A stretch of DNA of 64,000 nt from Alcanivorax sp. REN37 (lineage in GTDB: Bacteria; Pseudomonadota; Gammaproteobacteria; Pseudomonadales; Alcanivoracaceae): positions 124,001 through 188,000 of the forward strand of contig NZ_JBGCUO010000001.1 of NCBI RefSeq assembly GCF_041102775.1, written 5' to 3'. How positions within the stretch are numbered: position 1 is the first letter of the stretch; the number at the start of each line of letters is the position of its first letter. Of the stretch, positions 35,019 through 60,821 are shown piece after piece. The notes under the pieces are model-generated. The model saw nothing but the letters and a program-made list of their open reading frames with translations, made no database searches and had not been told where the DNA came from. Both the position numbers and the translations under genes were made by a program.

Positions 35019-38000
35019 ATGGCGGCTCGTACCCTGTTTCCGCGAACCCTGCGGGTGTCCCGCACCCACCGTTTCCTGCTGCGTCCGTTGGCGCAGGCCG
35101 TGGCACTGGCCATGCTTAGTCAAGGCGCCTTGGCGGCGATGCCGGGCTGGATGCATGGTGGTACCGCGCCGCCCAGTCAGGGCGGCAGTGCTGGTGCGGG
35201 CTATCCTGGTGGGCTGCCGCCGGGTACTGGCGTGCCGCGGCCGCCGATGCCGACGCCGGATGCTCAATTGCGTGAAAGCATGCGCAACCTCGGCAACACG
35301 CTGTCCAATATTGCTGCTGCGCAGGCCCGTCATGCAGCGTCGCGCCGTGCCGCCTATGACTCCGCCATCGACATCCCCGATGGCTTGGGCGAAGGCGGCC
35401 TGCAAATTGACCGTTCGCTGCCATTTGAAGAAGCTTGGCGCAATGCCAAGGCGCCGGTGCAAACCATCAAGGATGGCAGAACCGAGGTCACCATTACCCA
35501 GACCGACGACAAGGCGATCCTGAACTGGGAAACCTTCAACGTCGGCCGCGACACCACGGTGAACTTTGAGCAGGAACGGGACTGGGCGGTGCTCAACCGC
35601 GTCAATGATGCCCAGTCGCGACCGTCGCAGATCCTTGGTCAGGTGAAGGGCGACGGCACTGTGATGATCGTCAACCGCAACGGTGTGATCTTCACCGGCA
35701 CCTCACAAGTCAACGTGCGCAATTTGGTCGCGGCGGCGACGCAGATCAGTGACGAGCAGTTCAGCGAGCGCGGCATCTACGCGAGCGAAAGCAACAACCA
35801 ATACACCCCCAGCTTCACCGCCGCCGGCGGCAAAGTGGTGGTTGAGGCCGGCGCTGAGATCACTACCCACAAAGCCGAAAAAGCCACGGAAGCGGGCGGC
35901 TACGTGATGCTGCTTGGGCGTGAAGTGCACAACGCCGGCCGGATCGTGACCGCCAATGGTCAGGTCACGCTGGCCGCCGGGGATGAATTCGTCATCCGCC
36001 GCGGTTACAGCACCGACAGCAACCCGGGCTCCAGCACCCGTGGCAACGAAGTGGGCGTGCGCCGCGCTGCCGGCAGCGACAGCGGCTTGGTGACCAACAG
36101 CGGCATCCTGCAAGCCTCCACCGGCGACATCACCTTGGCAGGGCATCAGCTGCGCCAGGACGGCGTCATCGTCAGTTCGACCTCGGTGGACAATCGCGGC
36201 ACCGTGCACCTGCTCAACAGCGCCCGCGACAACGAGGGCAGCATCACCTTCGGCAAAGACAGTGTCACCGCCATTCTGGTGGAGGACAGCGATGTTACCG
36301 GTTTGGATGCACAGAAAGACGCCGGGCTCACCAACCTTGTTGGTCAGGGTCCCAATCAAGTGAATAACACTGGCGACTTCGACCTTTATAGCGGTGCCCG
36401 TACCCACGGGGCCCTGTCGCGGGTGGAAGTTGTCAGCGGTGGTGAAGTGAATTTCGAAGGTGGCAGCACCACGCTGGCGACCGGCGGCCACATCACAGTG
36501 GACGCGCCCCGCACCCAGATCCGCGATGGCGCAGTGCTGGACGTGTCCGGCGCTACCGGTGTGGTGGTGTCGATGGAATCGAACAGCATCCGCATCAACG
36601 TACAGGGCTTTGAGCAGCGCGAATCACCGGTCAACCGCGACGAAAAAAATCTCAACAGCAAGCGCGTGTGGATTGATCTGCGCGATCTGATTTTCGTGCC
36701 GTCGGGCACCAACGGCTACGACGGCGACCGTTGGTACACCGCCGGCGGCCTGTTGGAAGTAGGTGGTCATGTGGCCAACCTGGGGCGTGGTATCGGTGAG
36801 TGGTTGTCGCAGGGCGGCAGCCTGCGGGTCAGCGGCAAGGATCTGGTCACCGAGCAAGGTTCTCGCATCAACCTGTCCGGCGGCACCCTGCAGGTGCAGA
36901 CCGGCTACGTCTACAAGTCCTATGTGAAAGGTGCCGACGGCAAGCTCTACGACGTTGCCACCGCCCCCGGCGACGTGCTCTACACCGGCCTGTACCAAGG
37001 CTTCGAGCGCCGCAGCGAGCGCTGGGGTCATACCGACTATTACTGGAATCCGATGGTGGCGTCACAGCGGGTGCTGGAGAACGGCTACACCATCGGCCGC
37101 GACGCGGGCCAGATGATGGTCGGTACCGAAACCGCCTCCCTGGCCGGCGACCTGATCGGCGAGGTGTACCAAGGTGATCGCCAGATCCGTCGCGGCCAAG
37201 CCGGCCTGGAAAGTTTCTATCAGTCGCAGAACGCCATTGCCCGCGGTGCCGAGTTGATCATTGGCAAGCTCGAGCAGTTCTACGACAAGAGCAGCGGTCG
37301 GTTGGTGGATCGCTTCAGCGCCGTGACCGACCAAGTGACCTTGGGGGGCGATGCCCGCGACAGCGGCATCCACCTCAACGGCGATTGGCTCGACGCCCAA
37401 GGTTTGAGCCGCCTGCGCGTGGCCGGTCTCGACAGCGTCAGCGTGGAACAGAAAGTGTCAGTGGCCGACGGCGGCAGCATCCAGCTGCTGTCTCCCCATG
37501 TACGCATCAACGCCGACTTGGTGGCGCGCAGTGGGCGCATTGAAGCGGGCAATATCAGCCGCCAACCGACGGTCCTCAACGACACCGTCACCATGGGCGA
37601 CCATCTACTGCGCGCCCGCGGTGAGAATCCGGTGGGCATCGAAGTGGCCGAAAACGTGGTGCTGGATGCCTCGGGTCGCTGGGTGGTGCTGAGCACCGGC
37701 GGCGATACCAAGCAGCTCGCATACCGCGATGGTGGCGATGTGTTGCTGCGCAGCAGCGGTGACACAAAGCTGGCGGATGGCAGTTTGATCACGGTGTCCT
37801 CCGGCGGTGGCTTTGGCGAGAACGGCAAGCGGCTGGGTGGCCGCGGCGGCAATGTCACCTTCGGGCATATCGAGCTGGGCGGTGATCTGGAACTGAACGG
37901 CGAGATCGAAGGCTACGGCGTGGACGGTGGCGGCACGTTGACGTTGATTTCAAGTCGTGGGGTGGTGATTTCTGATGATGATAGCGCCGGCGCGGAGGGG

Positions 38001-47714: not shown

Positions 47715-47744
47715 CCGGAGGTCAACTTCATAGGCGTGTTTAAA

Positions 47745-47780
47745 AAATCCCCTGCTCTTGATGGAGCAGGGGATTTTTAA
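47745..47780 (+). terminator. Strong terminator after the giant exoprotein gene
   Basis: A 14-base perfect stem, AAAATCCCCTGCTC with GAGCAGGGGATTTT, around TTGATG, ending in TTTTT. It separates the exoprotein transcript from the DING-like gene. Confidence 0.95.
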
Positions 47781-47958
47781 TTTAAAGAGCGCGTTATTTC
47801 CCACTTTTTATGAAAATTAAAAGAACCCGAGTTTTTTTAATTCTTCTTCAATGAGTGGCGTCTAAGGTGGTGTTCAGCGCCAGACACCGGCCGATACCAA
47901 GGCTGCCGATGTGGGCGATGACCACGCATTCAACCAATCACTCAACGAGGGCAACATC
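47781..47958 (+). promoter_or_regulatory. AT-rich promoter region of the DING-like gene
   Basis: The first ~75 bases are AT-rich (runs such as TTTTTTTAATT and AAAATTAAAAG) and presumably hold the promoter, but I could not settle on a -35/-10 pair or a Pho box. ACGAGG precedes the chosen ATG. Confidence 0.4.
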
Positions 47959-49113
47959 ATGGATCTGATCAAGAACGCTCTGGTGGCCGGTGTGGCCGCT
48001 GCTGCTCTGGCCGGTGCATCGGTCGCTTCTGCTGCAGTAATCGGTGGCGGTGCTACGCTGTCCCAACCGCTGTTTGAAGATCTGGTGGTATACAACCCGA
48101 GCTACGGTTGGGATTACGCCGGCACCGGCAGCGGTACCGGCAAGAAAGCCTTCTTCGGCAACGATGCCACCCACTTCAACGCCGTGCGCCAGCAAAACGG
48201 TCTGCCGCCGTATGCAGCGGGCACCGCGGTGAAGTATGCGGGCAGTGACTCCGTCGTATCTGAAGCGGAAGCTCTGGACTTTGCTACTGATCTGGAGCCG
48301 ACCGTGGGCAAGCTGATCCAAGTACCGCTGGCGGCCACCTCGGTGACGGTGCCGTTCAACGTGCCGGGCCTGTCTTCTTTGAACCTGACCTCCGCTCAGC
48401 TGGTTTCCATCTTCAAAGGCGAGATCACCAACTGGAACCAGCTGGACAGCTCCTACCCCGACCTGGCCCTCAAAGTGGTGTACCGCACCGGCGGCAGCGG
48501 CACCACCGAGATTTTCGTGCGCCACCTGAAGGCTGTGGATTCAGTCAAGTTCCCGGACGTGACCAATGACTTCCAAAGCACTATCGATCCTTCCAACCCG
48601 GTATTCGTGCAAGCGACCGGCAGCGGCGGCGTCGCCGGTTCTGTTCAGGCCACGCCTGGCGCCATTGGCTATGTGAGCCCGGATCCGGCCTACATCGACG
48701 TCAACGATGCCAGTCAGGTTGCTGCACTGCAAAACCCGAATGACGGGCAGTTCTACCTTCCGACCGAAGTGAACGTGATCATGACCGTGGAATCTGTAGA
48801 GCCGCCGGAGGGTACTGATCGTCTCCAAGCCATCAATTGGGGTAAGACCTTTGCCAACCCGACTGCGGGCTATTCCATCGCAGGCTTCACCTTCCTGCTG
48901 GCGAATGAGTGCTACGCGGATCCTAGCGAAGCGTCCTCTATCCGTGCGTTCTTCCAAGATCACTACACCGGCACCCACGATGCGGATATCAGTGCCCACG
49001 CCCTGATCCCGCTGGCTGCCAACTGGAACAGCGCTGTGATGGCGACCTACATCAACAGTGGAGCTCCGGCAGAAATCAACGGTGCTGGTTGCTCTACTAA
49101 AGCCGGCCGCTGA
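47959..49113 (+). CDS. DING/PstS-like phosphate-binding protein
   Basis: Secreted or periplasmic 384-residue protein with a clear signal peptide (VAAAALAGASVASA, cleavage near residue 25). The mature start AVIGGGATLSQPLFED corresponds to the DINGGGATLPQ start that names DING proteins, with the DIN part altered. Other matching blocks: KYAGSDSVVSEAE, LIQVPLAATSVTVPFN, VYRTGGSGTTEIFVRHL (phosphate-binding loop) and the C-terminal ECYADPSEASSIRAFF and ALIPLAANWNSAV. DING proteins bind phosphate with high affinity, and the P. aeruginosa LapA homologue is secreted under phosphate starvation. Its place directly after the TpsA gene supports a phosphate link. No pst transport genes are adjacent, so it is probably not a standard ABC-importer subunit. 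Confidence 0.85.
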   Translation: MDLIKNALVAGVAAAALAGASVASAAVIGGGATLSQPLFEDLVVYNPSYGWDYAGTGSGTGKKAFFGNDATHFNAVRQQNGLPPYAAGTAVKYAGSDSVVSEAEALDFATDLEPTVGKLIQVPLAATSVTVPFNVPGLSSLNLTSAQLVSIFKGEITNWNQLDSSYPDLALKVVYRTGGSGTTEIFVRHLKAVDSVKFPDVTNDFQSTIDPSNPVFVQATGSGGVAGSVQATPGAIGYVSPDPAYIDVNDASQVAALQNPNDGQFYLPTEVNVIMTVESVEPPEGTDRLQAINWGKTFANPTAGYSIAGFTFLLANECYADPSEASSIRAFFQDHYTGTHDADISAHALIPLAANWNSAVMATYINSGAPAEINGAGCSTKAGR

Positions 49114-49129
49114 TCCACCCCGCCCCACC

Positions 49130-49155
49130 AAAACGGGCCCTCACGGGCCCGTTTT
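49130..49155. terminator. Terminator between convergent DING-like and small secreted-protein genes
   Basis: AAAACGGGCCC pairs with GGGCCCGTTTT around TCAC. T tracts occur on both strands (TTTTGCTTT on +; AAAA on the other arm), so it probably serves both directions. Confidence 0.85.
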
Positions 49156-49170
49156 GCTTTCCCCAATTCA

Positions 49171-49479
49171 CTAGCGCGGCGGCCGTTCCGGTACCACGCC
49201 CTTGCCGAATTGATTGCCCAGCATGGTCCGCAGTGCGGACTGATTGAACAGGCCCCATTGCTGCGGCGCACGTTGAGGGTCGGTGCCATCCAGGTTCCAA
49301 GGGGCAACGCCGGGTTGACCAGAGGCTGCCGGTGCCGCCATCGCTGCACTCAGGCACTGATAGTCAGGAATGCGCACGCCATCCACCTCAATGCTGACGC
49401 ATACCGGCAGCTCCGTAGCTGTTTCGGCGTGACTGATCAGCGGCAGGCCGATGAGCAGCAGGGCAGTGAAGGGGCGCAT
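49171..49479 (-). CDS. Small secreted protein of unknown function
   Basis: 102 residues with a signal peptide (FTALLLIGLPLISHA) and a short mature chain with two cysteines flanking SIEVDGVRIPDY, which could form one disulfide. The rest is rich in Gly, Pro and Gln without recognisable domain. The ATG at 49479 is chosen because the signal peptide begins there; the frame extends to 49773 over the Pho-box-like element and the divergent gene and is not credible beyond. It is the only - gene inside the island. I do not recognise the family. Confidence 0.6.
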   Translation of the reverse strand: MRPFTALLLIGLPLISHAETATELPVCVSIEVDGVRIPDYQCLSAAMAAPAASGQPGVAPWNLDGTDPQRAPQQWGLFNQSALRTMLGNQFGKGVVPERPPR

Positions 49480-49579
49480 GGCGGGACTCCGAAACACAGC
49501 GGGACACCAGTATGGCCAACTGGCGCGCCGCGCCGGTGACAGCTTTGCAAAATCCCTGTTGGCCGCCGCCGGGGTGTGT

Positions 49580-49616
49580 TTGTAACGCCTCTGTAACCGG
49601 GTCTCACCAGTATTGT
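49580..49616 (+). promoter_or_regulatory. Pho-box-like direct repeat with -10, before the signalling cassette
   Basis: TTGTAAC (49580-49586) and CTGTAAC (49591-49597) are spaced by GCCT, so the repeat period is 11, as in a Pho box (CTGTCAT-N4-CTGTCAT; E. coli phoE has CTGTAAT). A -10-like TATTGT is at 49611-49616, 13 bases after the box, where PhoB-dependent promoters have it. It is 45 bases upstream of the STN protein start. Match to consensus is partial. Confidence 0.5.
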
Positions 49617-49661
49617 GATCCGGCGCACAGGTGGCCTGGGCGCGCTCAGCGGGAGTGCCGC

Positions 49662-50276
49662 ATGCGGTGGCAACGGATCGCCTGCACCGGCTGGCTGGTG
49701 CTGGCGGCGGCAATGGCGATGGCTGCGGAGCGGCGGCAGTTTGATCTGCCTGCGGCGCCGCTGCATGAGGCATTGGAAGCCTTCAGCGCGGCCACCGGTA
49801 TGGCGGTGCTGTACCCGCGCCCTTGGGTGGACGGCCAGCAGGCACCGGCGCTGCGCGGGGCGTTTGAAGATCAAGACGCGCTGGCTCATTTGCTGGCCGG
49901 CAGCGGTCTGGAGGCGGCGTTCAGCGACTCGCGTCAGCGTGCCTTTACGTTGCGGCGGCTGGCGCCCAGTGCGGCGCCGGTGGTGGATGACCGCGCGCTG
50001 GCCGATGGCCTGCGCCGCTGGCTCTGCGCCACGCCGCTGCTGGCGCCGGGGGATTACCGCGCCGCCTTGCAGTTGTGGTGGCATCCGGACGGCCGCGTCC
50101 GGCAGGTGAAGTTGTTGGCCAGCACTGGGGTGCCGGACCGCGATCGCCAGTTGCAGCGTCGGCTCGGGCAATGGCAGCTCGCGCCGGCAGCACGACAAGG
50201 ACGGGAGCAGCCGGTCACCCTGCTGCTCACGCCGCAGCCCGGTGGGCCGGCGGCGCAGTGTTCAGGAGAGCGCTAG
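49662..50276 (+). CDS. STN-domain protein with a TonB-C-like domain and no barrel (VreA-like)
   Basis: 204 residues. Signal peptide CTGWLVLAAAMAMA; then an STN (secretin/TonB short N-terminal) domain at ~25-100: RRQFDLPAAPLHEALEAFSA, VLYPRPWVDGQQAPAL, LLAGSGLEAAF. Such domains at the front of FecA-type receptors signal to FecR proteins. The receptor barrel is absent; residues ~115-195 instead resemble a TonB C-terminal domain (LQLWWHPDGRVRQVKLLAST, then DRQLQRRLGQWQL and PVTLLLTP). This recalls P. aeruginosa VreA, a signalling protein without a barrel. It is 3 bases upstream of the sigma factor gene, so the group is one operon. GGGAG precedes the ATG; a start at 49512 is rejected. Confidence 0.75.
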   Translation: MRWQRIACTGWLVLAAAMAMAAERRQFDLPAAPLHEALEAFSAATGMAVLYPRPWVDGQQAPALRGAFEDQDALAHLLAGSGLEAAFSDSRQRAFTLRRLAPSAAPVVDDRALADGLRRWLCATPLLAPGDYRAALQLWWHPDGRVRQVKLLASTGVPDRDRQLQRRLGQWQLAPAARQGREQPVTLLLTPQPGGPAAQCSGER

Positions 50277-50279
50277 CCG

Positions 50280-50885
50280 ATGAGCAAGGAACAAATGAAA
50301 ACGCTGTATCTGGAGCGTTATCACGAGCTGAAACGGCGCCTGGTGGCGCGGCTGGGCAACGAGCACATGGCCGAGGATGTGCTGCAGGAAACCTGGATGA
50401 AGGTGGACCAAATGGCGGACGCGACCGCCGTGGCCAACCCGATGGGCTACCTGCTGCGTATCGCTGTCAATCTGGCCATGGACCAGCACCGTGCCGAGCA
50501 ACGCTTGCTGTACAGCGACGAAGTGGAATCCCTGATGCATGACATGGCATCCGGGCCGGGGCCGGCGGAAGCGGCCCAGGCCGAGCAGGAAGTGTGGTTG
50601 CTGCGGCGCGCGTTGCACCGGCTGCCGAGCCGGCGGCGGCGCATCTTGTTGGCATCACGGCTGGCGGGGGTGGGGCACCGGGAGCTGGCGCAGGAATTTG
50701 GGGTGTCGACCCGCACCATCGAAAAAGAACTCAAGGCGGCGCTGCTGTTTTGTGGCGACCTAGTGGAACGGGATGTGTACCAACGGTTCGGTCCCGGGGC
50801 CGGCAGTCGGTCTGTTCCTCATGCGCGGACGCAACCGGCGTCCGACTCTGATGCGGTGACCGATTCCCATGGTGATCCGGCCTGA
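50280..50885 (+). CDS. ECF sigma factor of the FecI type
   Basis: Directs RNA polymerase to the promoters of the surface-signalling regulon. Region 2 is seen in LGNEHMAEDVLQETWMKVDQ and ANPMGYLLRIAVNLAMDQHR, region 4 in LHRLPSRRRRILLASRLAG and the recognition helix ELAQEFGVSTRTIEKELKAA. 201 residues, slightly longer than FecI owing to a Ser/Asp-rich tail. It is encoded between the STN protein and FecR genes, the standard surface-signalling order, and overlaps fecR by 17 bases, which suggests coupled translation. Counterpart of P. aeruginosa VreI by context. Confidence 0.9.
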   Translation: MSKEQMKTLYLERYHELKRRLVARLGNEHMAEDVLQETWMKVDQMADATAVANPMGYLLRIAVNLAMDQHRAEQRLLYSDEVESLMHDMASGPGPAEAAQAEQEVWLLRRALHRLPSRRRRILLASRLAGVGHRELAQEFGVSTRTIEKELKAALLFCGDLVERDVYQRFGPGAGSRSVPHARTQPASDSDAVTDSHGDPA

Positions 50886-51798
50886 TACAGCGCCGCACAC
50901 AGCATCCACTGAGGAAGCGGTGGATTGGATTGTTCGGCTGACCTCCGGCGCTGCTACGGCAGCGGATGCGGAGGCATTCCGCCAATGGTGTGCGGCCAGC
51001 CCTGACCATCGCGCGGCATTTCAGCGCGAGTACCGGCGCTGGCAACAACTTTCCCACTGCGCGCTGGCGACTGCCGCGCCGCAAAATCCGCAGCGCCGAC
51101 GGCTGCTCAAGGGCCTGCTTGCCGGTGGCGCGGTGGCGGCCGGCATGGCGGGACTGGGCGTCGGTGTTGCCGGCTGGCGCAGCCCTAGCGGCGACTATGT
51201 CACGGCGGTGGGCGAGCAGCGCGAGCTGTCGCTGGGTGACTTGGCTCTGACGCTCAATACCGACAGCGCGCTCAATGCGCGGCCTCAAGACCGTGGCTGG
51301 TGGCTGGAACTGCTGCGCGGCGAACTGCTGCTGACGGCGCCAGCACAGGGTTTGGCCATGGTGCGGGCGGGCGCGGCGTTGGTGCAGGTGCGCGATGCCC
51401 AGGTCAATGTGCAGCAGTTGTCCGAACGCTTGTGCATCACCTGCCTGCAGGGCCAGGTGCGGGTGCATTCCGGCAGCCAGCAGACCGCGCTCTCCGGCGG
51501 CCAGCAACTGGTGGTGCGCGGTGAGCGGCAGAGCGATGTCTACCGCGCCGACGCCGACAGCGTGTTGGCGTGGCAACACGGGGTATTGGTGTTCAACGAC
51601 CGGCCGCTGGCGGAAGTGGTGGATGAACTTAATCGTTATTGGCCCGGCCGGGTGCTGCTGCTGCGCCGCGAACTGGGGCGCATGCGGGTGCAGGCGCGCT
51701 TCGAGCTGGATCAAATCAACGAGATTCCGCAATTGATCGGCACCGCCTATGGATTGTCGGTGACGCGCTTGCCGGGGCAGGTGGTGGTGCTCAGCTGA
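50869..51798 (+). CDS. FecR-type anti-sigma factor
   Basis: Inner-membrane regulator that holds the ECF sigma factor until signalled from the periplasm. N-terminal cytoplasmic DUF4880-type domain (EAVDWIVRLTSGAATAADAEAFRQW, here positions ~16-41), a membrane helix near 84-101 preceded by RRRLLKG, a twin-arginine-like feature also found in other FecR proteins, a FecR domain near 110-215 and a C-terminal STN-like domain ending PQLIGTAYGLSVTRLPGQVV. 309 residues, normal for the family. The start overlaps the sigma gene. Confidence 0.9.
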   Translation: MVIRPDTAPHTASTEEAVDWIVRLTSGAATAADAEAFRQWCAASPDHRAAFQREYRRWQQLSHCALATAAPQNPQRRRLLKGLLAGGAVAAGMAGLGVGVAGWRSPSGDYVTAVGEQRELSLGDLALTLNTDSALNARPQDRGWWLELLRGELLLTAPAQGLAMVRAGAALVQVRDAQVNVQQLSERLCITCLQGQVRVHSGSQQTALSGGQQLVVRGERQSDVYRADADSVLAWQHGVLVFNDRPLAEVVDELNRYWPGRVLLLRRELGRMRVQARFELDQINEIPQLIGTAYGLSVTRLPGQVVVLS

Positions 51799-51897
51799 GC
51801 CGTCGATCCTGTGCTGGCGACCGCCGGGGTTGTCGCGGGCCATCGCCGAGGTGTGCTTGGCGATACTGCCGCGGCAATGGAGCGGCGGAGCGCGGAC

Positions 51898-52329
51898 GTG
51901 AAACGGTTGCTGATAATGCTGTGTAGTGTGGCCGGGTGTGCGGCGCCGCCGGTGCAACTGCACCTGCCCGCCGGCCAGTGGCCGTTGGACGGCGTGACGC
52001 CGGTGGCGATCGGCCATAGCGGCGACATGTTGCTGCTGCGGTTTGCCGACGGCCGCTACCTCGGCCACCGCCAGTTGACCCATGACGAGTTGGCCTACTT
52101 TCAGTCCGGCGGCGCCACCGATGATCAGCGCGCCGCTCACTTCCTGTCAGCGACCGATGCCGCGCCTTTGCTGCACCGAACCGCCGGCGATCGGGCGCTG
52201 TGGGTGCAGCCGGTGCCCAACAGTGCCGGAGCTTCCAGCCTGCTGCTGCGCCATGGCGCGCACTATTACTACCTCGATACCAGCGTCGATCCGACGCTGT
52301 TGCTGCACTGGCTGCAGCGCTGGCACTGA
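51898..52329 (+). CDS. Small lipoprotein of unknown function in the signalling operon
   Basis: 143 residues from a GTG with GGAG 7 bases upstream. Signal peptide RLLIMLCSVAGC has a lipobox with the cysteine at about residue 14. The mature chain (VQLHLPAGQWPLDGVTPVAI onward) is beta-rich with no recognised domain. It lies 99 bases after fecR and 136 before tpsB. An in-frame ATG at 51811 would place the signal peptide internally and is less likely. Perhaps a modulator of the STN-FecR pathway or an assembly factor for the exoprotein; this is inference. Confidence 0.65.
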   Translation: MKRLLIMLCSVAGCAAPPVQLHLPAGQWPLDGVTPVAIGHSGDMLLLRFADGRYLGHRQLTHDELAYFQSGGATDDQRAAHFLSATDAAPLLHRTAGDRALWVQPVPNSAGASSLLLRHGAHYYYLDTSVDPTLLLHWLQRWH

Positions 52330-52465
52330 CTGCCGTGTGAATTCTTTGTGACAACCCTTCGGTGCCGCGTCGGCATCGCCGTCAACTGGGCACTGTTCGG
52401 GTGGCTGGCTGCGGCGTGGCCGCCCGGTTGCCCCCCTGGCCGGGGACCAAAGGGAAAACCAAGGC

Positions 52466-54094
52466 ATGACGGCAGCAACAAGGACGCGTCGATTCGGCGC
52501 ACACGGAATTTTCGCCAGTGCGTTGATGCTGGCACTGGCAGCGCCGGCGTTAGCGGCGGAACAAGCGGACGTCAGCGACGACGCGGCGCACATCGATACT
52601 GCCACCGTTACGGTGCGCGAGTACCTGGTGCGCGGCAACACGGTGCTGACGGTGCGCGAGATCCAGGACACCGTGTACCCCTTCCTCGGCGAGCAGCGCA
52701 CGCTGGCTGACATCGACGCCGCCCGCGAAGCGCTGCAACAGCGTTATGAGGCGGCCGGCTACCAGTCCGTGTTCGTCGATTTACCCGAACAAGCGGTGAC
52801 CGGCGGCGTGGTGCTGCTGGTGGTCAACGAAACCCGCATCGGCCGGGTGCGAGTGGAAGACGCCACCCATACCTCGCCGCAAGCCATCCGCGATCAGGTG
52901 CCGGCGTTGACTGAGGGCAGCGTGCCCAACTTCCAAGCGGTGCAGCAAGAACTGGGTGCGGTGGCGCAGCGGTTGCGGCCGGTGGCGCCGGTGGTCCGCG
53001 AAGGACAGTTGCCGGGCACCATGGACGTCACTCTGCAGGTGGACGACCAGCGGCCCAGCTACGGCAGCTTGGCGTTCAATAACGACTACAGCGCTGACAC
53101 CACCCACTATCGCGCCGTGGTCACCGTGGGCCACCGCAACCTGTGGCAGAAAGGCCACGATGCCTCGCTGACCTTCTTCACCGCCCCGGAAGACCTGGAT
53201 GACGCCAAGGTCTGGACCGGTTCCTACCTGGCGCCGCTGGGCGGCAACTGGTCGCTGCGTGCCAATGCGTTCAAATCCGACAGCGACGTGGCCACCGTCG
53301 GCGGCACCACCGTGGTCGGTCGCGGCACTGCCTACGGCGCCACCCTGCTGTACAGCTGGCCGTTCCAGAACCGCTGGCTGCACTCGGTGTCGGCGGGCAT
53401 GGAGTTCAAGAGCTTCCGTGAAGCGCTCGGCATGGCCGGCGTCGACGCCCAGCGTTACCCGATCAAATACGCGCCGCTGTCGCTCGGTTACACCGGCTAC
53501 CGTTTCGGCGACAAGAGCCAGTCTGACTTGCACCTGACCGTGGTGACGGGCTTTGCCGAGTTCTTCGGTTACGGCAGCAGCGACGAAGAGTTCAACGACA
53601 AACGCCACCGCGCCCGCCCCAGCTTCACGCTGCTCAAGGCCGGTGCCTCGCATACCCATAACCTCACTGAATCCGGCTGGCAGCTGCACGGCACGGGCTC
53701 GGTGCAGCTGGCCACCGGCCCGCTGATTTCCAACGAGCAGATGTCTGCCGGCGGCGCCACCAGCGTGCGCGGCTACCTGTCCGCGGAATCCACCGGGGAC
53801 ACCGGTGGTTTGCTGTCCGCCGAGCTGCGCACGCCGACGCTGTCGGGCTGGCTCGGGCCAGACCTGAATGACTGGCGCTTCTATCTGTTTGCCGACAGCG
53901 CGCGCTTGGAACTACTGAAACCGTTGCCGGAACAGCGCTGGGTGCACCGCCTAGCCAGCGCCGGGGTCGGCACGCGCGCACAGATGTACGACTGGCTGTC
54001 GTGGGGCCTGGATCTTGCCTGGCCGCTGCGCGACGGCGCTAACACTGAACGTTACGACCCCCATGTGCACTTCAACGTGCGCGCCACCTTCTGA
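52466..54094 (+). CDS. TpsB outer-membrane transporter (ShlB/FhaC/HecB family)
   Basis: Omp85-superfamily pore that exports the giant TpsA across the outer membrane. 542 residues: signal peptide ending ALAAPALA, POTRA region from about 50 (EYLVRGNTVLTVREIQDTVYP, then the LADIDAAREALQQRYEAAGY helix), then the barrel from about 185 (PSYGSLAFNNDYS). The lid-loop motif is TSVRGYLSAE, the VRGY signature of the family. The chain ends in phenylalanine (VRATF), as expected for BAM-dependent barrels. Heads a tight row of genes to 59847. Corresponds by position to P. aeruginosa PdtB. Confidence 0.92.
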   Translation: MTAATRTRRFGAHGIFASALMLALAAPALAAEQADVSDDAAHIDTATVTVREYLVRGNTVLTVREIQDTVYPFLGEQRTLADIDAAREALQQRYEAAGYQSVFVDLPEQAVTGGVVLLVVNETRIGRVRVEDATHTSPQAIRDQVPALTEGSVPNFQAVQQELGAVAQRLRPVAPVVREGQLPGTMDVTLQVDDQRPSYGSLAFNNDYSADTTHYRAVVTVGHRNLWQKGHDASLTFFTAPEDLDDAKVWTGSYLAPLGGNWSLRANAFKSDSDVATVGGTTVVGRGTAYGATLLYSWPFQNRWLHSVSAGMEFKSFREALGMAGVDAQRYPIKYAPLSLGYTGYRFGDKSQSDLHLTVVTGFAEFFGYGSSDEEFNDKRHRARPSFTLLKAGASHTHNLTESGWQLHGTGSVQLATGPLISNEQMSAGGATSVRGYLSAESTGDTGGLLSAELRTPTLSGWLGPDLNDWRFYLFADSARLELLKPLPEQRWVHRLASAGVGTRAQMYDWLSWGLDLAWPLRDGANTERYDPHVHFNVRATF

Positions 54095-54127
54095 TGTTTG
54101 CCCCGGACCCGGAGTAAGGACGACGCC

Positions 54128-55891
54128 ATGCAACGCCTGATAACCCTCTTGATCACTTGCCTGCTGCTGGCGCCGCTCACCGCCCAGGCGTGGTGGGATG
54201 CCAACTGGAAGTACCGCAAGCAGATTTCCGTGGACACCACTGCCGAAGGCGCCGCCATCGACCAGGCGCCAGGGCGCACGCCGCTGCTGGTGCGGCTGCA
54301 CACCGGCAACTTCGAATTCAATGATGTGCAGGAAAGCGGTGCCGACCTGCGGTTTGTCACCGGTGATGACCGCACTGTGCTCAACCACCAAGTGGAGCGG
54401 TTTGATGCACTGATGGGCGTGGCCTATGTGTGGGTCGATGTGCCGGCGGTGGACGGCGGCACCCGCCAAGACCTGTGGCTGTACTACGGCAACGACAACG
54501 CCCCCAGCACCAGCGACGGTGGCCAGACCTTTGATCCCAACTACACGCTGGTCTACCACTTCGATGATCCGGCCGGCAGCGCCCCGCGCGACAGCACCGG
54601 CTACGGCAATCACAGCACCAGCACCCTCAACGACCTCACCGACGGCGTTATCGGCCGCGCCGCACAGTTCAATGGCACCGGTGGCCTGACGCTGCCGGCG
54701 GCGGCCTCGCTGGCGCTGCCCAACGGCGGGCTAATGACGCTGAGCCTGTGGGTGCGCCCGGACCAGCTGGATGGCGACCGCGTGCTCTATGCCCGCGCCG
54801 ACAGCGGCCAGCAATTTTTGCTCGGCCTGGCGGACGGCGCGCCCTATGTGGCGGTCAACGGCCAGCGCTCCACCCTTGGTGCGCCGCTGGTCACCGGCCA
54901 GTGGCAACACCTGGCGGTGACCGCCGACGGCACCCAAGTGCGGCTGTATGTTGATGGCCGTGCCGCTGCCAGCCTGGCGGCGTTATTGCCGCCGCTGAAC
55001 ACCGCCGCGCACCTCGCCGCCCTGCCCAATGTGGCGGTGGAGGGCGATGCGCCGGCGCCGGTGGCGCAGCCGTTCGTGGGGGCACTGGATGAACTACGAC
55101 TGTCACGCATCGTGCGCCCGGAGGCTCTGCTGCGTGCGGACGCTGCGGCGCAGGGCGCAGATTCGCGGTTGGTCAGTTACGGCGTTGATGAGCAGCAGTC
55201 CGGCATGGGCTTCGGCGCACTCGGCTTCCTGTTCAGTGCGGTGCCGTTCGATGCCTGGGTGATCCTGTTCATCCTGCTGCTGATGATGCTGCAAAGCTGG
55301 GTAATTATGGTGCGCAAAAGCCGCGCCCTCACCCGCATGGAAACCGAAAACGCCGCCTTCCGTGACCAGTTCAACCACGCCGGCACCCGCCTTGAGCAGT
55401 TGCATCAGGCCACCGCCGACCGCTACCCGCACTCCTCGCTGTACCGCATCTACGACGCCGCCATGGAACAGGTGCAAGTGCGTCGCAGTGAAGGCATGAC
55501 GCGGCTGTCTCCGGCGGCACTGGAGTCGGTGCGTGCCAGCATGGACGCCGCCCGCTCCGGTGCGCTGCAGCAACTCGGTGCGCGTCTCGGGGTGCTGTCC
55601 AACGCCATCGCTGGCGGTCCCTACATCGGCCTGCTCGGCACCGTGCTCGGCATCATGGTGGTGTTCCTCGGCACCGCGATGGCCGGCGACGTGAACATCA
55701 ACGCCATCGCGCCGGGTATGGCTGCGGCGCTACTGGCCACCGCCATGGGCCTGTTCGTCGCTATCCCGGCGCTGTTTGGCTACAACCGCCTGGTGTCGCG
55801 CAACAAGGATGTCAGCGCGGACATGCGCGTGTTCGGCGACGAACTGCTGGCGCGGCTGGCTGAGCGCAGCGACGCCGCGCAGGAGGTGTGA
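54128..55891 (+). CDS. ExbB-type proton channel with N-terminal DUF2341 and LamG-like periplasmic domains
   Basis: 587 residues, more than twice normal ExbB (about 240). Signal peptide ITCLLLAPLTAQA; then a DUF2341-type domain (WWDANWKYRKQISVDT, LWLYYGNDNAPSTSDG), then a LamG/concanavalin-like fold at ~145-315 (LTLSLWVRP-type, here LMTLSLWVRPDQLDGDRVLY, and QWQHLAVTADGTQVRLYVDG). A membrane helix at ~371-394 leads into the MotA/TolQ/ExbB core, with helices at ~494-518 (GGPYIGLLGTVLGIMVVFLG) and ~531-557. The periplasmic part may bind glycans or the exoprotein. exbD and tonB follow directly; 33 bases separate it from tpsB. AAGGA precedes the ATG at 54128. Confidence 0.88.
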   Translation: MQRLITLLITCLLLAPLTAQAWWDANWKYRKQISVDTTAEGAAIDQAPGRTPLLVRLHTGNFEFNDVQESGADLRFVTGDDRTVLNHQVERFDALMGVAYVWVDVPAVDGGTRQDLWLYYGNDNAPSTSDGGQTFDPNYTLVYHFDDPAGSAPRDSTGYGNHSTSTLNDLTDGVIGRAAQFNGTGGLTLPAAASLALPNGGLMTLSLWVRPDQLDGDRVLYARADSGQQFLLGLADGAPYVAVNGQRSTLGAPLVTGQWQHLAVTADGTQVRLYVDGRAAASLAALLPPLNTAAHLAALPNVAVEGDAPAPVAQPFVGALDELRLSRIVRPEALLRADAAAQGADSRLVSYGVDEQQSGMGFGALGFLFSAVPFDAWVILFILLLMMLQSWVIMVRKSRALTRMETENAAFRDQFNHAGTRLEQLHQATADRYPHSSLYRIYDAAMEQVQVRRSEGMTRLSPAALESVRASMDAARSGALQQLGARLGVLSNAIAGGPYIGLLGTVLGIMVVFLGTAMAGDVNINAIAPGMAAALLATAMGLFVAIPALFGYNRLVSRNKDVSADMRVFGDELLARLAERSDAAQEV

Positions 55892-55892
55892 G

Positions 55893-56306
55893 ATGGCCCG
55901 CTCCAACGCGCCGGACGAAGACGATGATGTGGTCGACGGCATCAACATCACGCCGCTGGTGGACGTGCTCATGGTGGTGCTGGTGATGTTCATCCTCACC
56001 GCCACCGCGCAAGTGGCAGGCATTCGCGTCGACCTGCCCAAGGCCAGCACCTCCACCTCGCTGTCGGAATCCAACACCAAAGCGATTTCCATCAACGATG
56101 TGGGTCAGGTGTTTCTCGATGCCTACCCGGTCACTCTGCCGGAGCTGGAAGACCGGCTGCGCCGCGAAAAAGCCATCACCCCGGATTTCCCGGTGGTGGT
56201 GCGCGGTGACGCGGTGGTGCAGTACCAGAAAGTGGTGGAAGTGCTGGACCTGCTGCGGCGGCTGGACTTGAACCAGGTCGGCCTGGTCACCGGGCGGCCG
56301 AAATGA
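55893..56306 (+). CDS. exbD: ExbD/TolR-type motor subunit
   Basis: 137 residues with one membrane helix (LVDVLMVVLVMFILTATA). The proton-carrying aspartate is D24 in NITPLVDVLMV, equivalent to E. coli ExbD D25. The periplasmic domain holds the usual LRREKAITPDFPVVVRGD segment. AGGAGG overlaps the stop region of the ExbB fusion, and the ATG comes one base after that stop. A longer frame from 55776 lies inside the previous gene. Confidence 0.93.
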   Translation: MARSNAPDEDDDVVDGINITPLVDVLMVVLVMFILTATAQVAGIRVDLPKASTSTSLSESNTKAISINDVGQVFLDAYPVTLPELEDRLRREKAITPDFPVVVRGDAVVQYQKVVEVLDLLRRLDLNQVGLVTGRPK

Positions 56307-56324
56307 TCGGCGGGAGGCCATGCG

Positions 56325-57023
56325 GTGAACAAGCGCGCTGACAACGCCGGTAACGGACGGAGCAAGACCATGCTGTGGTGGCTGCTGGGTGTGATCGCCT
56401 TGGTGCTGATCGGCGCTTTGGTGTGGTACTGGGCGCAGCAACAAAGCGGCATCCGCCGCGAGACGCCGCCGCTGCAGACCATCATCCCGCTGCCGCCACC
56501 GCCAGAGCCGCCGCCGGAGCAGGAGCCGCCGCCGGAACCGGAAGAGGTGGAGCAGGACGTGCCAGATCCGGACCCGGAGCCGACGCCGCTGGATGAACCG
56601 CTGCCCGAAGACGACGTGCCGCGTCCCAGTGATGACCTGTCGGAAGCGATGCAGATCGACGGCGATGCCCAATCCGGCAGCGATGCCTTCGGCCTCAGCG
56701 CCGGCGGGGGCGGCGGCATGGGCGGCAGCGGCGCCGGCCGCGCCGGCAACGCCACCTACGGGCAATACCTGGCCTATCAGTTGCAGCGGGTGCTGCGCGA
56801 TGACGCCGATACCCGCGCGCTGGTGTTCCAACTGCGCCTGAACCTGTGGCTGAACGAAGGCGGCCAGATCACCCGCGTGGAAGTCCTGCGTTCCAGCGGT
56901 GATGACAGCGTGGACGAAAAAGTGGTGACGGCGCTGCGACGGGCAGCGGCGTTCGGAGAACGGCCGCCGGCGTCGCTGCGACTGCCGGTGACGATTGCGG
57001 TGTCCGGGCGTCGCCCGGGCTGA
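56325..57023 (+). CDS. TonB-family energy-transducing protein
   Basis: 232 residues from a GTG with GGAGG upstream. An N-terminal membrane anchor (LWWLLGVIALVLIGALVWYW) is followed by a Pro/Glu/Asp linker at ~48-105 (PLPPPPEPPPEQEPPPEPEE), a glycine-rich hinge (AGGGGGMGGSGAG) and a TonB C-terminal domain from ~145 (LNLWLNEGGQITRVEVLRSS, VTALRRAAAF). With the ExbB and ExbD genes it makes a complete, dedicated Ton system. The barrel partner is not obvious: no TonB-dependent receptor plug is in the window. Confidence 0.85.
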   Translation: MNKRADNAGNGRSKTMLWWLLGVIALVLIGALVWYWAQQQSGIRRETPPLQTIIPLPPPPEPPPEQEPPPEPEEVEQDVPDPDPEPTPLDEPLPEDDVPRPSDDLSEAMQIDGDAQSGSDAFGLSAGGGGGMGGSGAGRAGNATYGQYLAYQLQRVLRDDADTRALVFQLRLNLWLNEGGQITRVEVLRSSGDDSVDEKVVTALRRAAAFGERPPASLRLPVTIAVSGRRPG

Positions 57024-57044
57024 TCGCTGACCAAGGAGAGCTCA

Positions 57045-58715
57045 ATGAAACGCAAACTCGTGATGCTGGCACTGCTCACCGCCGGCGTGGCCCAAGCACA
57101 AGCCCCGGACGCCACCACCGTGAACCTGATCCGGCTGCTGGTGGAGCAGGGCGTGCTGGAAGCGGAGCAAGCCGATGCCCTGCTGCGCCAAGCGCAGCAG
57201 CAGGCGGCACCGGCACTGACGGCAGAGCCCGGCGATGTGCGGGTGCCCTACATTCCGGAGAACGTGCGCGAAGAAATCACCGCCTCGCTGCGCGAGCAAG
57301 TGATCGCCGAAGCCGAACGCGATGGCTGGGCCGCGCCCGGCCAAGTGGCCGATTGGACCCGCCGCATCAAAGTGGACGCCGACGTGCGCTTGCGCGATGA
57401 GTCGCGCTTCATGGGTGACGGCAACGATCCTTACTTGGTCGATTACCACCGCTTCAACCAAGAAGGGCCGCAGGACATGTCGCCGGCGCAGATCGGCCTC
57501 GGCGCCTACCCGCCGTTCTACAACACCACGCGTGATCGCACTAACCTGATCCGCGTGCGCGCCCGGCTGGGTGTGACGGCAATGCTGTCTGATCACTGGG
57601 AGGCCGGGCTGCGGCTGGCCACCGGCAGCAGCGACGATCCGGTGTCCACCAACCAGACCCTTGGCGGCGGTCTGGAGAAAAAAGATTTCTGGCTGGATCG
57701 CGGTTACATCCGCTGGCGCTCCGGTGACCGCTGGAGCGTCACCGGGGGCCGGTTCGCCACCCCGTTCCTGTTCACCGACATGCTCTATTCCAACGATCTA
57801 AATCTGGATGGTCTGGCGGTGGGCTTTGACGACACCGACGGCAGCGGCCTGTTCGCCACCCTGGGCGCCTTCCCGCTGGAGTACACCAGCGACGACAGCC
57901 CCAGCCGCAGTGAGGTGAAGCAGCGTTCGAAGGACAAATGGCTGTTTGGTGCCCAGGTCGGTGCGCGTTTCCAGTTCTCCGAGCGCAACAGCCTGTTGGC
58001 GGCGGCCAGTTTCTATGAGTTCGACAATATCAGCGGTGAGCGCAGTGCTGCCTGCTCCCCCTGGCGCTCGCCGCGCGAGGGCGGCTATGGCTGCTCCACG
58101 GACTGGTCGCGCCCGGCGTTCATGCAGAAGGGCAACACCGTGTTCATGCTGCGTGACATCGCGCTCGATCCCACCGATCCGGCCGCCACGCCGATGCCGC
58201 AGTACGTGGGCTTGGCCGCCGAGTTCCAGTTGCTCGACCTGCACCTGCGCTGGGACGGTGATCTGGTCAATGACCTGCGCTACCGCGTGCACGCCAACTA
58301 CATCCAGAACCTCGGCTACAGCGAGAGCAAGATGTACCGCCGCATGGGCGCCACCGCCCAAGGCAGCACCGACGGCTTGATCGGTAACAACGTCGACCTC
58401 GCCGGTCGCATCAAGAGCGGCGACACCGCCTGGATGCTGGAGCTGTCGGTGGGCAACGCCCTCGATATCCGCGAGCAGGGCCAGTGGCTGCTGCAGGCCG
58501 GCTACAAGCGCATCGAGCCCGATGCCCTGCCGGACGCCTACAACGACGCCAGCTTCCACCGTGGCGGCACCAACGCCAAGGGCTTCTACCTCAGCGGCGC
58601 CTACGGTCTGCACCGCAATGTCTGGACCCAGCTACGCTGGATGAGCACTGAGGAAGTCTATGGCGCTCCGCTGGCGTTCGACATCGTCCAACTCGACCTG
58701 AACGCGAGGTTCTGA
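57045..58715 (+). CDS. Putative outer-membrane porin (Porin_5-like)
   Basis: 556 residues. Signal peptide VMLALLTAGVAQA; a short helical region (LIRLLVEQGVLEAEQADALLRQ) resembling the N-terminus of the putative-porin family; then a predicted beta-barrel with alternating aromatic strands (TNLIRVRARLGVTAMLSDHWEAGL-type, near residues 165-190), terminating in LDLNARF with the C-terminal phenylalanine. AGGAGAG precedes the ATG. It is the only barrel besides TpsB in the cluster, so it might be the target of the dedicated TonB or a separate uptake pore; this is inference. Substrate unknown. Confidence 0.75.
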   Translation: MKRKLVMLALLTAGVAQAQAPDATTVNLIRLLVEQGVLEAEQADALLRQAQQQAAPALTAEPGDVRVPYIPENVREEITASLREQVIAEAERDGWAAPGQVADWTRRIKVDADVRLRDESRFMGDGNDPYLVDYHRFNQEGPQDMSPAQIGLGAYPPFYNTTRDRTNLIRVRARLGVTAMLSDHWEAGLRLATGSSDDPVSTNQTLGGGLEKKDFWLDRGYIRWRSGDRWSVTGGRFATPFLFTDMLYSNDLNLDGLAVGFDDTDGSGLFATLGAFPLEYTSDDSPSRSEVKQRSKDKWLFGAQVGARFQFSERNSLLAAASFYEFDNISGERSAACSPWRSPREGGYGCSTDWSRPAFMQKGNTVFMLRDIALDPTDPAATPMPQYVGLAAEFQLLDLHLRWDGDLVNDLRYRVHANYIQNLGYSESKMYRRMGATAQGSTDGLIGNNVDLAGRIKSGDTAWMLELSVGNALDIREQGQWLLQAGYKRIEPDALPDAYNDASFHRGGTNAKGFYLSGAYGLHRNVWTQLRWMSTEEVYGAPLAFDIVQLDLNARF

Positions 58716-59407
58716 TGATGCTGTCCACGCCCCGATACTTGCTGCCGGCGCTGGTGGTGCTGGTCAGTACGCTCGGCTCGGTGCAGGCGCTGGGGCAAGC
58801 CGCCCCGGCGTCGCTGGAGGACCGCCTGCGGGCGGAGCTGCGCAGCGTCAGCGATCAGTTGCAGCGCGCCCAGGCAGAACTGCGCCAACTTACCGCCGAG
58901 CGCGATCAGGCCCAGCACGCACTCAAGAGCGCCGAACAGCAGGTCGAACGCCATGCCCGCGACTTATCGCGTGCCGAATCCCAGCACGACCGGCTGCGTG
59001 ACCAAGCCTCAGCGCAGATCAGCGCTCGTAACGAGCGGCTGGAGGAATACCGCGCCGCCTACGACGAGCTGCTGCATACCGCGCGCGAAAAGGAACAGCA
59101 GCGCAGTGTGGCCGAAAACGAACTGCGTTTCCGCCGTGCTCAAGTGGAGCAGTGCACGGTGCAGAACGAGGCACTGTATCAGACCGGTCACGAGGTCATC
59201 ACCGCCTTTGAACAGCTGCGTACCCGCGACCTGTTGCGAGCGCGCCAGCCGTTTGCCACCCACCAGCGCGTCAAGCTCGACAATCTGGTGCAGGAATACG
59301 CCGACAGTCTTTACGGCCACCGTTACCACCCGGCCCAACCGTTGCCGGAGGCCGAACAGGCCACCGCACCGGCGGCGCCGACCACGTCTTCAGGAGCGTC
59401 CCAATGA
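58715..59407 (+). CDS. Secreted coiled-coil protein
   Basis: 230 residues: signal peptide ALVVLVSTLGSVQA, then an almost unbroken charged alpha-helical coiled coil from about 33 to 145 (heptads rich in Leu, Arg, Glu, Ala and Gln), a single cysteine in VEQCTVQNEA and a proline/alanine tail. The ATG overlaps the porin stop by one base (TGATG), showing translational coupling. Could be a periplasmic spacer or scaffold around the motor and exoprotein. No enzymatic motif. Family not recognised. Confidence 0.7.
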   Translation: MMLSTPRYLLPALVVLVSTLGSVQALGQAAPASLEDRLRAELRSVSDQLQRAQAELRQLTAERDQAQHALKSAEQQVERHARDLSRAESQHDRLRDQASAQISARNERLEEYRAAYDELLHTAREKEQQRSVAENELRFRRAQVEQCTVQNEALYQTGHEVITAFEQLRTRDLLRARQPFATHQRVKLDNLVQEYADSLYGHRYHPAQPLPEAEQATAPAAPTTSSGASQ

Positions 59408-59847
59408 GCGAGCATCTCGAACTGATCCGTCACTTCAGCGCTGAACAACTGGCCACTTTGCTGCGTGAGCAAGGCTACCGCGTCACCGTGGATGAGGAGG
59501 GCCGGCTGCTGCGCAGTGCCAGCCAAGGCCTGGCGTTCCTGGCTCGGTTCGGTAATGCGGCCGAGACCGATGGCCAGTGGCTGGATGTCACCTTTGGCCT
59601 CACCCTGCAAGTGGACGGCGAACTGCCGGCCGAGCTGGTGAACCGCTGGAACAGCCGCATGCGTTTCGCCCGCCTCAGCCATCAGGGCGATGCGCTGGTG
59701 CTGGAGCAAGACCTGATGGTGGCGGGCGGTGTCCATGTGGATGCCGTGAAGGCCCAGCTAACGCTGTGGGACCGGCTGATCCAAGAACTGGTGTTTTTCC
59801 TACGCGAGCAATTGGCGGCAGACGATAGCCAGCGCGCCAGCGCTTAA
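59404..59847 (+). CDS. YbjN-domain protein
   Basis: 147 residues without signal peptide. The pattern ELVNRWNSRMRFARLS followed by ALVLEQDLMVAGGVHVDAV matches the YbjN family (a T3SS-chaperone-like fold). YbjN-like proteins are often tied to surface and motility functions, but their biochemistry is unclear. The ATG overlaps the previous stop as ATGA. Being at the end of the tpsB-exb-ton row it could be a cytosolic chaperone for the exoprotein; inference. Confidence 0.7.
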   Translation: MSEHLELIRHFSAEQLATLLREQGYRVTVDEEGRLLRSASQGLAFLARFGNAAETDGQWLDVTFGLTLQVDGELPAELVNRWNSRMRFARLSHQGDALVLEQDLMVAGGVHVDAVKAQLTLWDRLIQELVFFLREQLAADDSQRASA

Positions 59848-59924: not shown

Positions 59925-60821
59925 ATGGCACGGTTTATCGCACCGGCTTCCAGCGCGGCCAGCCCGCTGCCGCCGGTGCAATTGGAAAGCGCTTTTGTGC
60001 GGGTCGCCGAGCGCGGCAACTTCGCCGATGCGGCACAAGACCTGGCGCTGACGCCGGTGGCGCTGCGCCGCATGATGGATCGGCTGCAACGCCAGCAGGG
60101 CGCGCGGCTGTTGTTCCGCCAAGAACGGCAGGTGTGCCTGACCTGGGCCGGCCAGCAGCTGTACCAGCGCTTGCAGGGGCATCCGTTGACGCCTTCGCGA
60201 CCGCTAGTGATGGCAGTATCGGAGCCGCTGTTGTCCGGCTTCCTGCAACGCGGATTGTTGCAACTGATGCGCCAGCAACCGCAGTTGCAGCTGGTGCTAC
60301 AGGCGGTGCCGCTTGGTGCCGCCGCCGCGCAGTCAGATTTGGCGGTACTGCTCAGCGACAGCGCGCCGGCGGACGACGCCCGCCACATGGGGCAGGTGGA
60401 ATTCTCGCCCCATGTGGCGCGGCGTCAGCTGCGCCATAGCCCATGGCTGGCGGAACTGGACAGCGCTGCGGTCGGCCAGTTGGTCGGCGTACAGCCGGAA
60501 AGCATGGCTCAGTGCCCGACGCTGGCGGGTTGGCACCAGTGGCTGTCGCGCTACGCCCAAGGTTGGGTGCAAGTGCCGGCCAGCGAACACGCCCGCGCCC
60601 AGCTGCAGGGTGGCCGCGCGGTGGCACTGCTGCCCACCTTCACGCCGCAATTGGCACCGGAGCTGGTGGCCGTGCGTTGGCGCGGCGAGTCATTGCCGCA
60701 TTTGCGTGTGTGGTTGCACAGCGATGCCGCCGCGCCGAGCGCGCCGCTGCAGTGGCTGCATAACGCGGTCGGCGGCCTGCTGCAGGAGCGCGCCACCTGG
60801 CTCGGCACCCGGGTGCAATAA
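59925..60821 (+). CDS. LysR-type transcriptional regulator
   Basis: 298 residues. An N-terminal winged helix-turn-helix at ~18-80 (LESAFVRVAERGNFADAAQD, VALRRMMDRLQRQQGARLLF) with the standard LysR spacing, then a substrate-binding domain that is degenerate relative to typical LysR proteins. Preceded by AAGGAGG. It follows the island on the same strand, 77 bases after the YbjN gene, so it may regulate the island or the RND pump downstream; neither can be settled from the sequence. The effector is unknown. Confidence 0.8.
   Translation: MARFIAPASSAASPLPPVQLESAFVRVAERGNFADAAQDLALTPVALRRMMDRLQRQQGARLLFRQERQVCLTWAGQQLYQRLQGHPLTPSRPLVMAVSEPLLSGFLQRGLLQLMRQQPQLQLVLQAVPLGAAAAQSDLAVLLSDSAPADDARHMGQVEFSPHVARRQLRHSPWLAELDSAAVGQLVGVQPESMAQCPTLAGWHQWLSRYAQGWVQVPASEHARAQLQGGRAVALLPTFTPQLAPELVAVRWRGESLPHLRVWLHSDAAAPSAPLQWLHNAVGGLLQERATWLGTRVQ

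Follow-up and report, generated by a model that had tools for sequence, protein, structure and literature searches.

Gene content of the locus

The window, by which we mean the whole stretch of 64,000 nucleotides of Alcanivorax sp. REN37 DNA that was analysed, contains a gene island built around a giant two-partner secretion (TPS) exoprotein, TpsA (Table 1). The original prediction had listed the genes of a 25-kb part of the window; each of these was recovered as described and where it had been placed, all on the plus strand, and their arrangement exceeds chance by far. A small secreted protein encoded on the minus strand (49479-49171) had been overlooked. The STN protein may start at 49512, but Met51 (49662) is the more likely start. 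In genome-wide searches TpsA was the sole TPS-domain gene, and the genome had four ExbD sites and 15 Plug-domain sites, none of the latter inside the window. DING proteins are defined by the N-terminus DINGGG; the N-terminus of the protein encoded here reads VIGGGATL, which is not an exact DINGGG, and its best solved relative was the DING protein 2q9t (E 6e-50 vs 3e-12 for PstS). A DING phosphate-binding gene adjoins TpsA in the window and in two further genomes (G653 and G693).

Table 1. Features of the TpsA island, with positions in the window and the evidence for each assignment.
Feature	Position	Strand	Evidence
Phd/YefM-like ORF, possible PhdA counterpart (tentative)	34346..34864	+	Pfam PhdYeFM_antitox E only 0.078; phdA belongs to the P. 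aeruginosa locus (available excerpt of PMC7035377)
TpsA, giant TPS exoprotein, 4231 aa	35019..47714	+	TPS (PF05860) residues 135-406, E 3e-27; DUF3739 residues 4029-4139, E 2e-36
DUF3739 domain of TpsA, beta-helix end	47103..47435	+	Pfam and model
Box1, TpsA residues 4177-4186 (LISVDVLGYG), proposed grip for motor TonB	47547..47576	+	tail-box matrix and alignment
Degenerate box2-like C-terminus, TpsA residues 4205-4231, proposed grip for VreA	47631..47711	+	under box2 score range
DING-type phosphate-binding protein	47911..49113	+	PBP_like_2 E 2e-24; DING 2q9t E 6e-50
Small secreted protein, 102 aa, divergent from vreA	49171..49479	-	relatives in stretches of G653, G502, G748, G274, G625, G671
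VreA-like protein, STN and TonB-like C-terminal domain	49662..50276	+	STN 2e-5; TonB_C 7e-4
ECF sigma factor (VreI-like)	50280..50885	+	Sigma70_r4_2 5e-11; Sigma70_r2 2e-9
FecR anti-sigma factor (VreR-like)	50869..51798	+	DUF4880 3e-15; FecR 1e-9
Small lipobox protein	51811..52329	+	no Pfam family matched; lipobox SVAGC spotted by eye
TpsB outer-membrane transporter	52466..54094	+	ShlB 3e-17; POTRA_2 4e-15
ExbB with N-terminal DUF2341 and laminin-G-like domains	54098..55891	+	MotA_ExbB 3e-26; Laminin_G_3 2e-20; DUF2341 5e-19
ExbD	55890..56306	+	ExbD 1e-27
Dedicated TonB (C-terminal domain 56736-57020)	56325..57023	+	TonB_2 6e-6; model and Foldseek
Porin_5 outer-membrane protein	57045..58715	+	Porin_5 7e-170
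Secreted coiled-coil protein, PA0697 position	58715..59407	+	conserved neighbour among relatives
YbjN-family protein, PA0698 position	59404..59847	+	YbjN 3e-13
LysR-type regulator, perhaps PA0701 counterpart (tentative)	59925..60821	+	HTH_1 6e-12; LysR gene in the P. aeruginosa locus (available excerpt of PMC7035377)

The island is related to the PUMA3/Pdt locus of P. aeruginosa. According to the available excerpts of the P. aeruginosa literature, PUMA3 and pdtA-phdA-pdtB-exbB2-exbD2-tonB4-PA0696-PA0701 hold the same kinds of genes as the window (PMC2729926, PMC4971064, PMC7035377), and the PAO1 phdA promoter transcribes phdA, pdtB, exbB2-exbD2, tonB4 and PA0696-PA0701 (PMC4971064). The excerpt of PMC7035377 describes PA0696 as a putative porin, PA0698 as YbjN and PA0701 as LysR, and PA0697 is there said to resemble channel-forming colicins. 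The Pdt order TpsB-ExbB-ExbD-TonB-porin-PA0697 position-YbjN, as given in the same excerpt, is shared by the window, a comparison made by genes and their order. As the P. aeruginosa locus includes phdA and a LysR gene, the island may reach the Phd/YefM-like ORF on one side and the LysR gene on the other. The Vre part is likewise similar: the STN protein of the window has no barrel and carries a TonB/TolA-like C-terminal domain, like P. aeruginosa VreA, and is adjoined by an ECF sigma factor and a FecR anti-sigma factor.

In contrast to the P. aeruginosa locus, the island has no Hxc type II cluster, its DING gene directly follows TpsA, and a search for a pho box found none. The ORFs between 47911 and 60821 matched no T2SS family in Pfam scans; as a distinguishing trait the absence of a type II cluster had been overstated, since in gene maps of the 20-kb stretches fetched from most relatives the TPS-motor module has no need of such a cluster. 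The prediction had also taken the island to be phosphate-responsive, which is not supported. A consensus pho-box scan, a weak test, of the five regions upstream of the PhdA-like ORF, TpsA, the DING gene, VreA and TpsB gave no match that beat shuffled sequences, and hints of such a response come only from the DING protein and from the relatedness of the island to the P. aeruginosa locus, which is under PhoB control.

The window has in common with classical TPS systems of the FhaB/FhaC type a TPS domain, a beta-helix exoprotein and a POTRA-bearing TpsB with a ShlB barrel, but adds to them a dedicated ExbB-ExbD-TonB motor, DUF3739 and a tail, predicted to be disordered, with a conserved box that 14 other TpsAs lack. 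With TonB/ExbB/ExbD systems it shares the motor proteins and the TonB/TolA-type C-terminal domain; it differs from them in that it has no TonB-dependent receptor, that its ExbB bears DUF2341 and LamG, and that the proposed partner is a secreted exoprotein. The overall layout of TPS, ExbBD and porin has been known since 2009: according to the available excerpt of Llamas et al. (2009), TPS, ExbBD and PA0696 homologues accompany the PUMA3 clusters in six other strains or species (PMC2729926). What is new here is what the motor probably drives.

Co-occurrence of the motor with DUF3739-type TpsA

The distribution of the motor was followed in a class sample of 369 genomes, among which DUF3739 was present in 24, DUF2341 in 30 and both in 22. 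When the ExbB domain itself was checked, the DUF2341-LamG-ExbB fusion was found in 21 of the 24 DUF3739 genomes vs 1 of the 345 others (Fisher p 5e-30, kinship ignored). The lone fusion genome without DUF3739 (G104) is 85% complete, and the three DUF3739 genomes without the fusion comprise one with its TpsA at a contig end (G101), one that is 64% complete (G200) and one with a DUF3739 match under the cut-off (G223). In 20 of the 21 genomes the fusion lay on the TpsA contig, at most 24 kb away. The original prediction, that the proton motor is an integral part of this type of TPS, is thus supported by its co-occurrence with the TpsA type in other genomes, and an attempt to refute it on that ground failed.

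DUF2341 alone was rejected as a marker of the motor; nine class-sample genomes were not counted as fusion carriers, and in eight of these, all among the 30 with DUF2341, the fetched stretch gave no ExbB domain (G067, G101, G128, G143, G163, G164, G210 and G354, the last of which runs off its contig). In the available excerpt of PMC12505986, DUF2341 is an extra N-terminal domain on MotA/ExbB homologues, the function of which is not known.

A second set consisted of the best 80 of at least 528 relatives from a scan of genome contigs, made with patterns that lie in DUF3739 and ranked with use of the tail as well. The ExbB fusion was inside the fetched stretch at 59 of these 80 loci, and the usual order was TpsB-TpsA-ExbB-ExbD-TonB-Porin_5-coiled coil. 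Twenty genomes of this second set were searched whole, 13 of them chosen since no motor had been seen near TpsA; 19 had a clear ExbB-type fusion, and that of the remaining genome (G380) was partial.

The TpsA tail, the motor TonB and VreA

The C-terminus of TpsA consists of DUF3739, a variable linker rich in Ala and Ser, and a short motif near the end, box1, with the consensus LxVEVLGFG. Box1 was seen by eye in all 21 complete C-termini of the first set. With a matrix derived from that set, 74 of the 80 second-set tails outscored 99% of shuffled tails; three of these 74 belong to training-set genomes, and four second-set loci are first-set contigs (L121, L124, L131 and L146). The six low-scoring tails were one cut by a contig end (L146), one reading LDVAVVGL (L117), L130, and three variants of the form FxxVKxFCxG or similar (L119, L137 and L153). 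Among the 74 scored boxes, G occupied position 6 in 72 and position 8 in 73, and V position 2 in 61. The entropy of the box was 1.47 bits vs 3.17 in the preceding 30 residues (75 sequences). Twenty of the same genomes held 15 TPS genes without DUF3739, and none of the 14 C-termini read carried the box (three run off the contig; the 216-aa fragment G119:C3 was excluded). The tail past DUF3739 is predicted to be disordered: in an AlphaFold model of the last 330 residues the pLDDT was 46-60 over residues 241-310, box1 included (52-57), and 64-69 in the C-terminal helix.

By sequence, a clean identity of box1 as a TonB box found no support. A PSSM of 31 TonB boxes from ordinary receptors ranked the tail within the top 1% of positions for 2 of 21 TpsAs (median 5.6%), a PDB profile search with the box matched lectins and a chlorophyll-binding protein and no TonB-dependent receptor, and an NCBIfam search of eight tails matched no family. 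The box shares a loose LxxVxV pattern with receptor TonB boxes, which is not distinctive inside TpsA; it may also resemble the SusC/RagA box. A TonB box on TpsB was rejected, its N-terminal strand having the look of a normal POTRA strand in a 10-sequence consensus. In titles and abstracts of the open-access literature no TonB-type tail on a TpsA was found described, and a search of the open-access literature for DUF3739 found nothing.

The motor TonB was predicted to comprise a membrane helix, a Pro-rich linker and a compact C-terminal domain, which by its model has a TonB/TolA-type fold. Ranks 1-24 of a Foldseek search with this domain were all TonB/TolA/HasB/FusB C-terminal domains, the best E being 5.5e-3 and none being at or below 1e-3. 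In a profile search TonB (E 0.005), HasB (0.019) and TolA (0.08) appeared among Pro-rich false matches, three of which ranked higher. TonB and TolA domains take up a peptide as an extra beta-strand.

Genomes with several giant TpsAs were informative about the relation of box1 to the motor. Two Bradyrhizobium genomes have five (G379) and two (G382) giant TpsAs and one DUF2341 motor each, and box1 was present in all seven proteins. Between such shared-motor paralogues the box identity was 0.9-1.0 in 11 of 11 pairs and the domain identity 0.39-0.62, all pairs being from Bradyrhizobium and not independent. Five genomes have two TpsAs and two DUF2341 hits, the motor genes being partial in G380 (both) and G385 (one); here the box identities were 0.6, 0.6, 0.6, 0.4 and 0.9, the exception at 0.9 being G380, and the domain identities 0.50-0.59. 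Two other genomes, G748 and G571, each carry three TpsAs that share the same box; their fetched stretches contain one motor. On these alignments (11/11 shared-motor pairs, 4/5 two-motor genomes) box1 appears to track the motor rather than the gene.

The VreA of the window matched Pfam TonB_C (7e-4) below the curated cut-off and scored 36.6 bits on an HMM built from 67 motor-TonB domains. With this HMM all 14 VreA proteins scored 33-69 bits and four ordinary TonB/TolA proteins 21, 15, 15 and 12.5 bits; by sequence, the C-terminal domain of VreA resembles that of the motor TonB. Full-length VreA was found in at least 11 of 398 phylum genomes (at least 17 genes, matches ordered by E-value), and a DUF3739 TpsA was present in 11 of the 11 full-length-VreA genomes among the matches listed. 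The copies of VreA and TpsA numbered 3:3 in G748, 2:2 in G653, 4:3 in G571, 1:2 in G526 and 1:1 in the others, and VreA-sigma-FecR often lay directly before a TpsA.

Most TpsAs of VreA-bearing genomes have a second motif, box2, at the extreme C-terminus, with the consensus Y-D-P-x-S-x-V-Q-V-L-G-x-G-x-L. When each was scored by a model that excluded its whole genome, 18 of 24 such TpsAs reached at least 12.7, vs none of the 93 other TpsAs, in which VreA was absent from the fetched stretch and the maximum was 9.5; three rows above 9.5 are box1 matches that were not counted. Box2 is degenerate in the window (9.1, below the floor of 12.7) and in G274, G671 and G762, and there is none in G526. The TpsAs with box2 may form one clade, so that the association with VreA could partly be due to descent.

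A possible coupling of TpsA to the Ton motor

By current teaching, type Vb secretion requires no energy coupling at the outer membrane. On our assessment there is an even chance that the island encodes a TPS system coupled to its own proton-driven Ton motor, with the tail of TpsA as the partner of that motor; the conserved tag in this tail is probably what the motor grips. From the computed gene module, its co-occurrence, the conservation of the box, the predicted disorder, the TonB/TolA-type fold and the kinship of the VreA domain we infer the binding, the location and the use of force: TonB, and perhaps VreA, would grip the TpsA tail. TpsA would leave through TpsB with its N-terminus first, and its last ∼90 residues would remain in the periplasm for some time at least, forming a loose tail whose box1 would pair with the motor TonB. 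Powered by the proton gradient, ExbB-ExbD would anchor the surface fibre, put it under tension, pull it back or in the end release it. In systems of the Vre type, VreA would read box2 through its TonB-like domain and would report the presence of the TpsA tail in the periplasm to the FecR/sigma pair. This fuller version, in which secretion is coupled to the proton motive force by a Ton motor that grips the tail box across the periplasm while VreA reads box2 as a sensor gauging the fibre's own tail, is put forward tentatively and on the doubtful side. In the available excerpts on P. aeruginosa, VreA was not required for activation of sigma-VreI (PMC7035377), and a mutant in the tonB homologue PA0695 retained VreI-induced lethality in zebrafish (PMC2729926).

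The motor might instead energise Porin_5 to take up a nutrient that TpsA captures or releases, the tail serving something else, which we regard as rather unlikely. Porin_5 and the coiled-coil protein come after TonB in nearly every module, Porin_5 bears a conserved periplasmic N-terminal segment (consensus VRVpYVPe), and the DING gene found beside TpsA in three genomes would suit such a role. However, Porin_5 is not a TonB-dependent receptor family and the window is devoid of Plug domains, and porin uptake leaves unexplained why box1 should follow the motor, both where one motor is shared and where there are two, and why a VreA with a motor-TonB-like domain goes with box2.

A further reading, in which the Ton genes are co-regulated neighbours only and TpsB or some other envelope protein reads the tail box as a signal for secretion, retention or a chaperone, would agree with the TonB-box statistics, which give the box no support, and with TpsB being as constant a neighbour as the motor. 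It is nevertheless improbable in view of the 14 other TpsAs of the same genomes, all of them boxless, of the genome-wide co-occurrence, which persists where the motor is unlinked, and of the box pattern among paralogues, which follows the motor (a comparison made with the copy number of the motor). The box is also beta-like (VxVLG) and placed after the beta-helix, so a last strand that caps the helix was considered; the AlphaFold model, which leaves the box unpacked at low confidence after a variable linker, led to the rejection of this reading, and it is very improbable.

The available excerpt of PMC7035377 describes the ExbB2-ExbD2-TonB4 motor of P. aeruginosa as 'still uncharacterized' and treats the role of VreA as unknown. 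For the question of what the motor drives, the conserved TpsA tail itself is now a testable answer. If this tail is the partner of the motor, a single peptide would allow the roles of the motor and of VreA in P. aeruginosa to be tested, and giant adhesins of a widespread class would have a mechanical connection to the inner membrane.

Additional motor genes

Second DUF2341-ExbB-ExbD-TonB sets were present in three of the compared genomes (loci L085, L089 and L090, in G136, G119 and G150), and all three lacked both the porin and the coiled-coil gene. In G119 this set has a TPS-domain fragment as a neighbour, along with genes for type II secretion. Two consecutive ExbD genes were observed in modules L119, L133 and L153, and in two of these three (L119 and L153) TpsA has a variant tail whose end is a Cys-containing box.

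Surroundings of TpsA and vreA

Terminator-like sites showed no excess over the whole region (10 versus 8.0 in shuffles); one such hairpin precedes the DING gene. DING-type genes also adjoin the TpsA C-terminus in L396 (G653) and L399 (G693), as in the window. The small secreted protein encoded divergently from vreA has relatives in the Vre stretches of G653, G502, G748, G274, G625 and G671, and no Pfam family was found for it.

Features beside TpsA and vreA
Feature	Size	Position	Strand	Context
Terminator-like hairpin		window 47755-47772		between TpsA and DING gene
Small secreted protein	102 aa	window 49171-49479	-	divergent from vreA
Free secreted protein	159 aa	L156:11770-12249		closely 3' of Bradyrhizobium TpsA

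A free TonB-like domain

The free secreted protein of L156 scored 36.5 bits against the motor-TonB domain HMM. It may be a third tail-binding domain.
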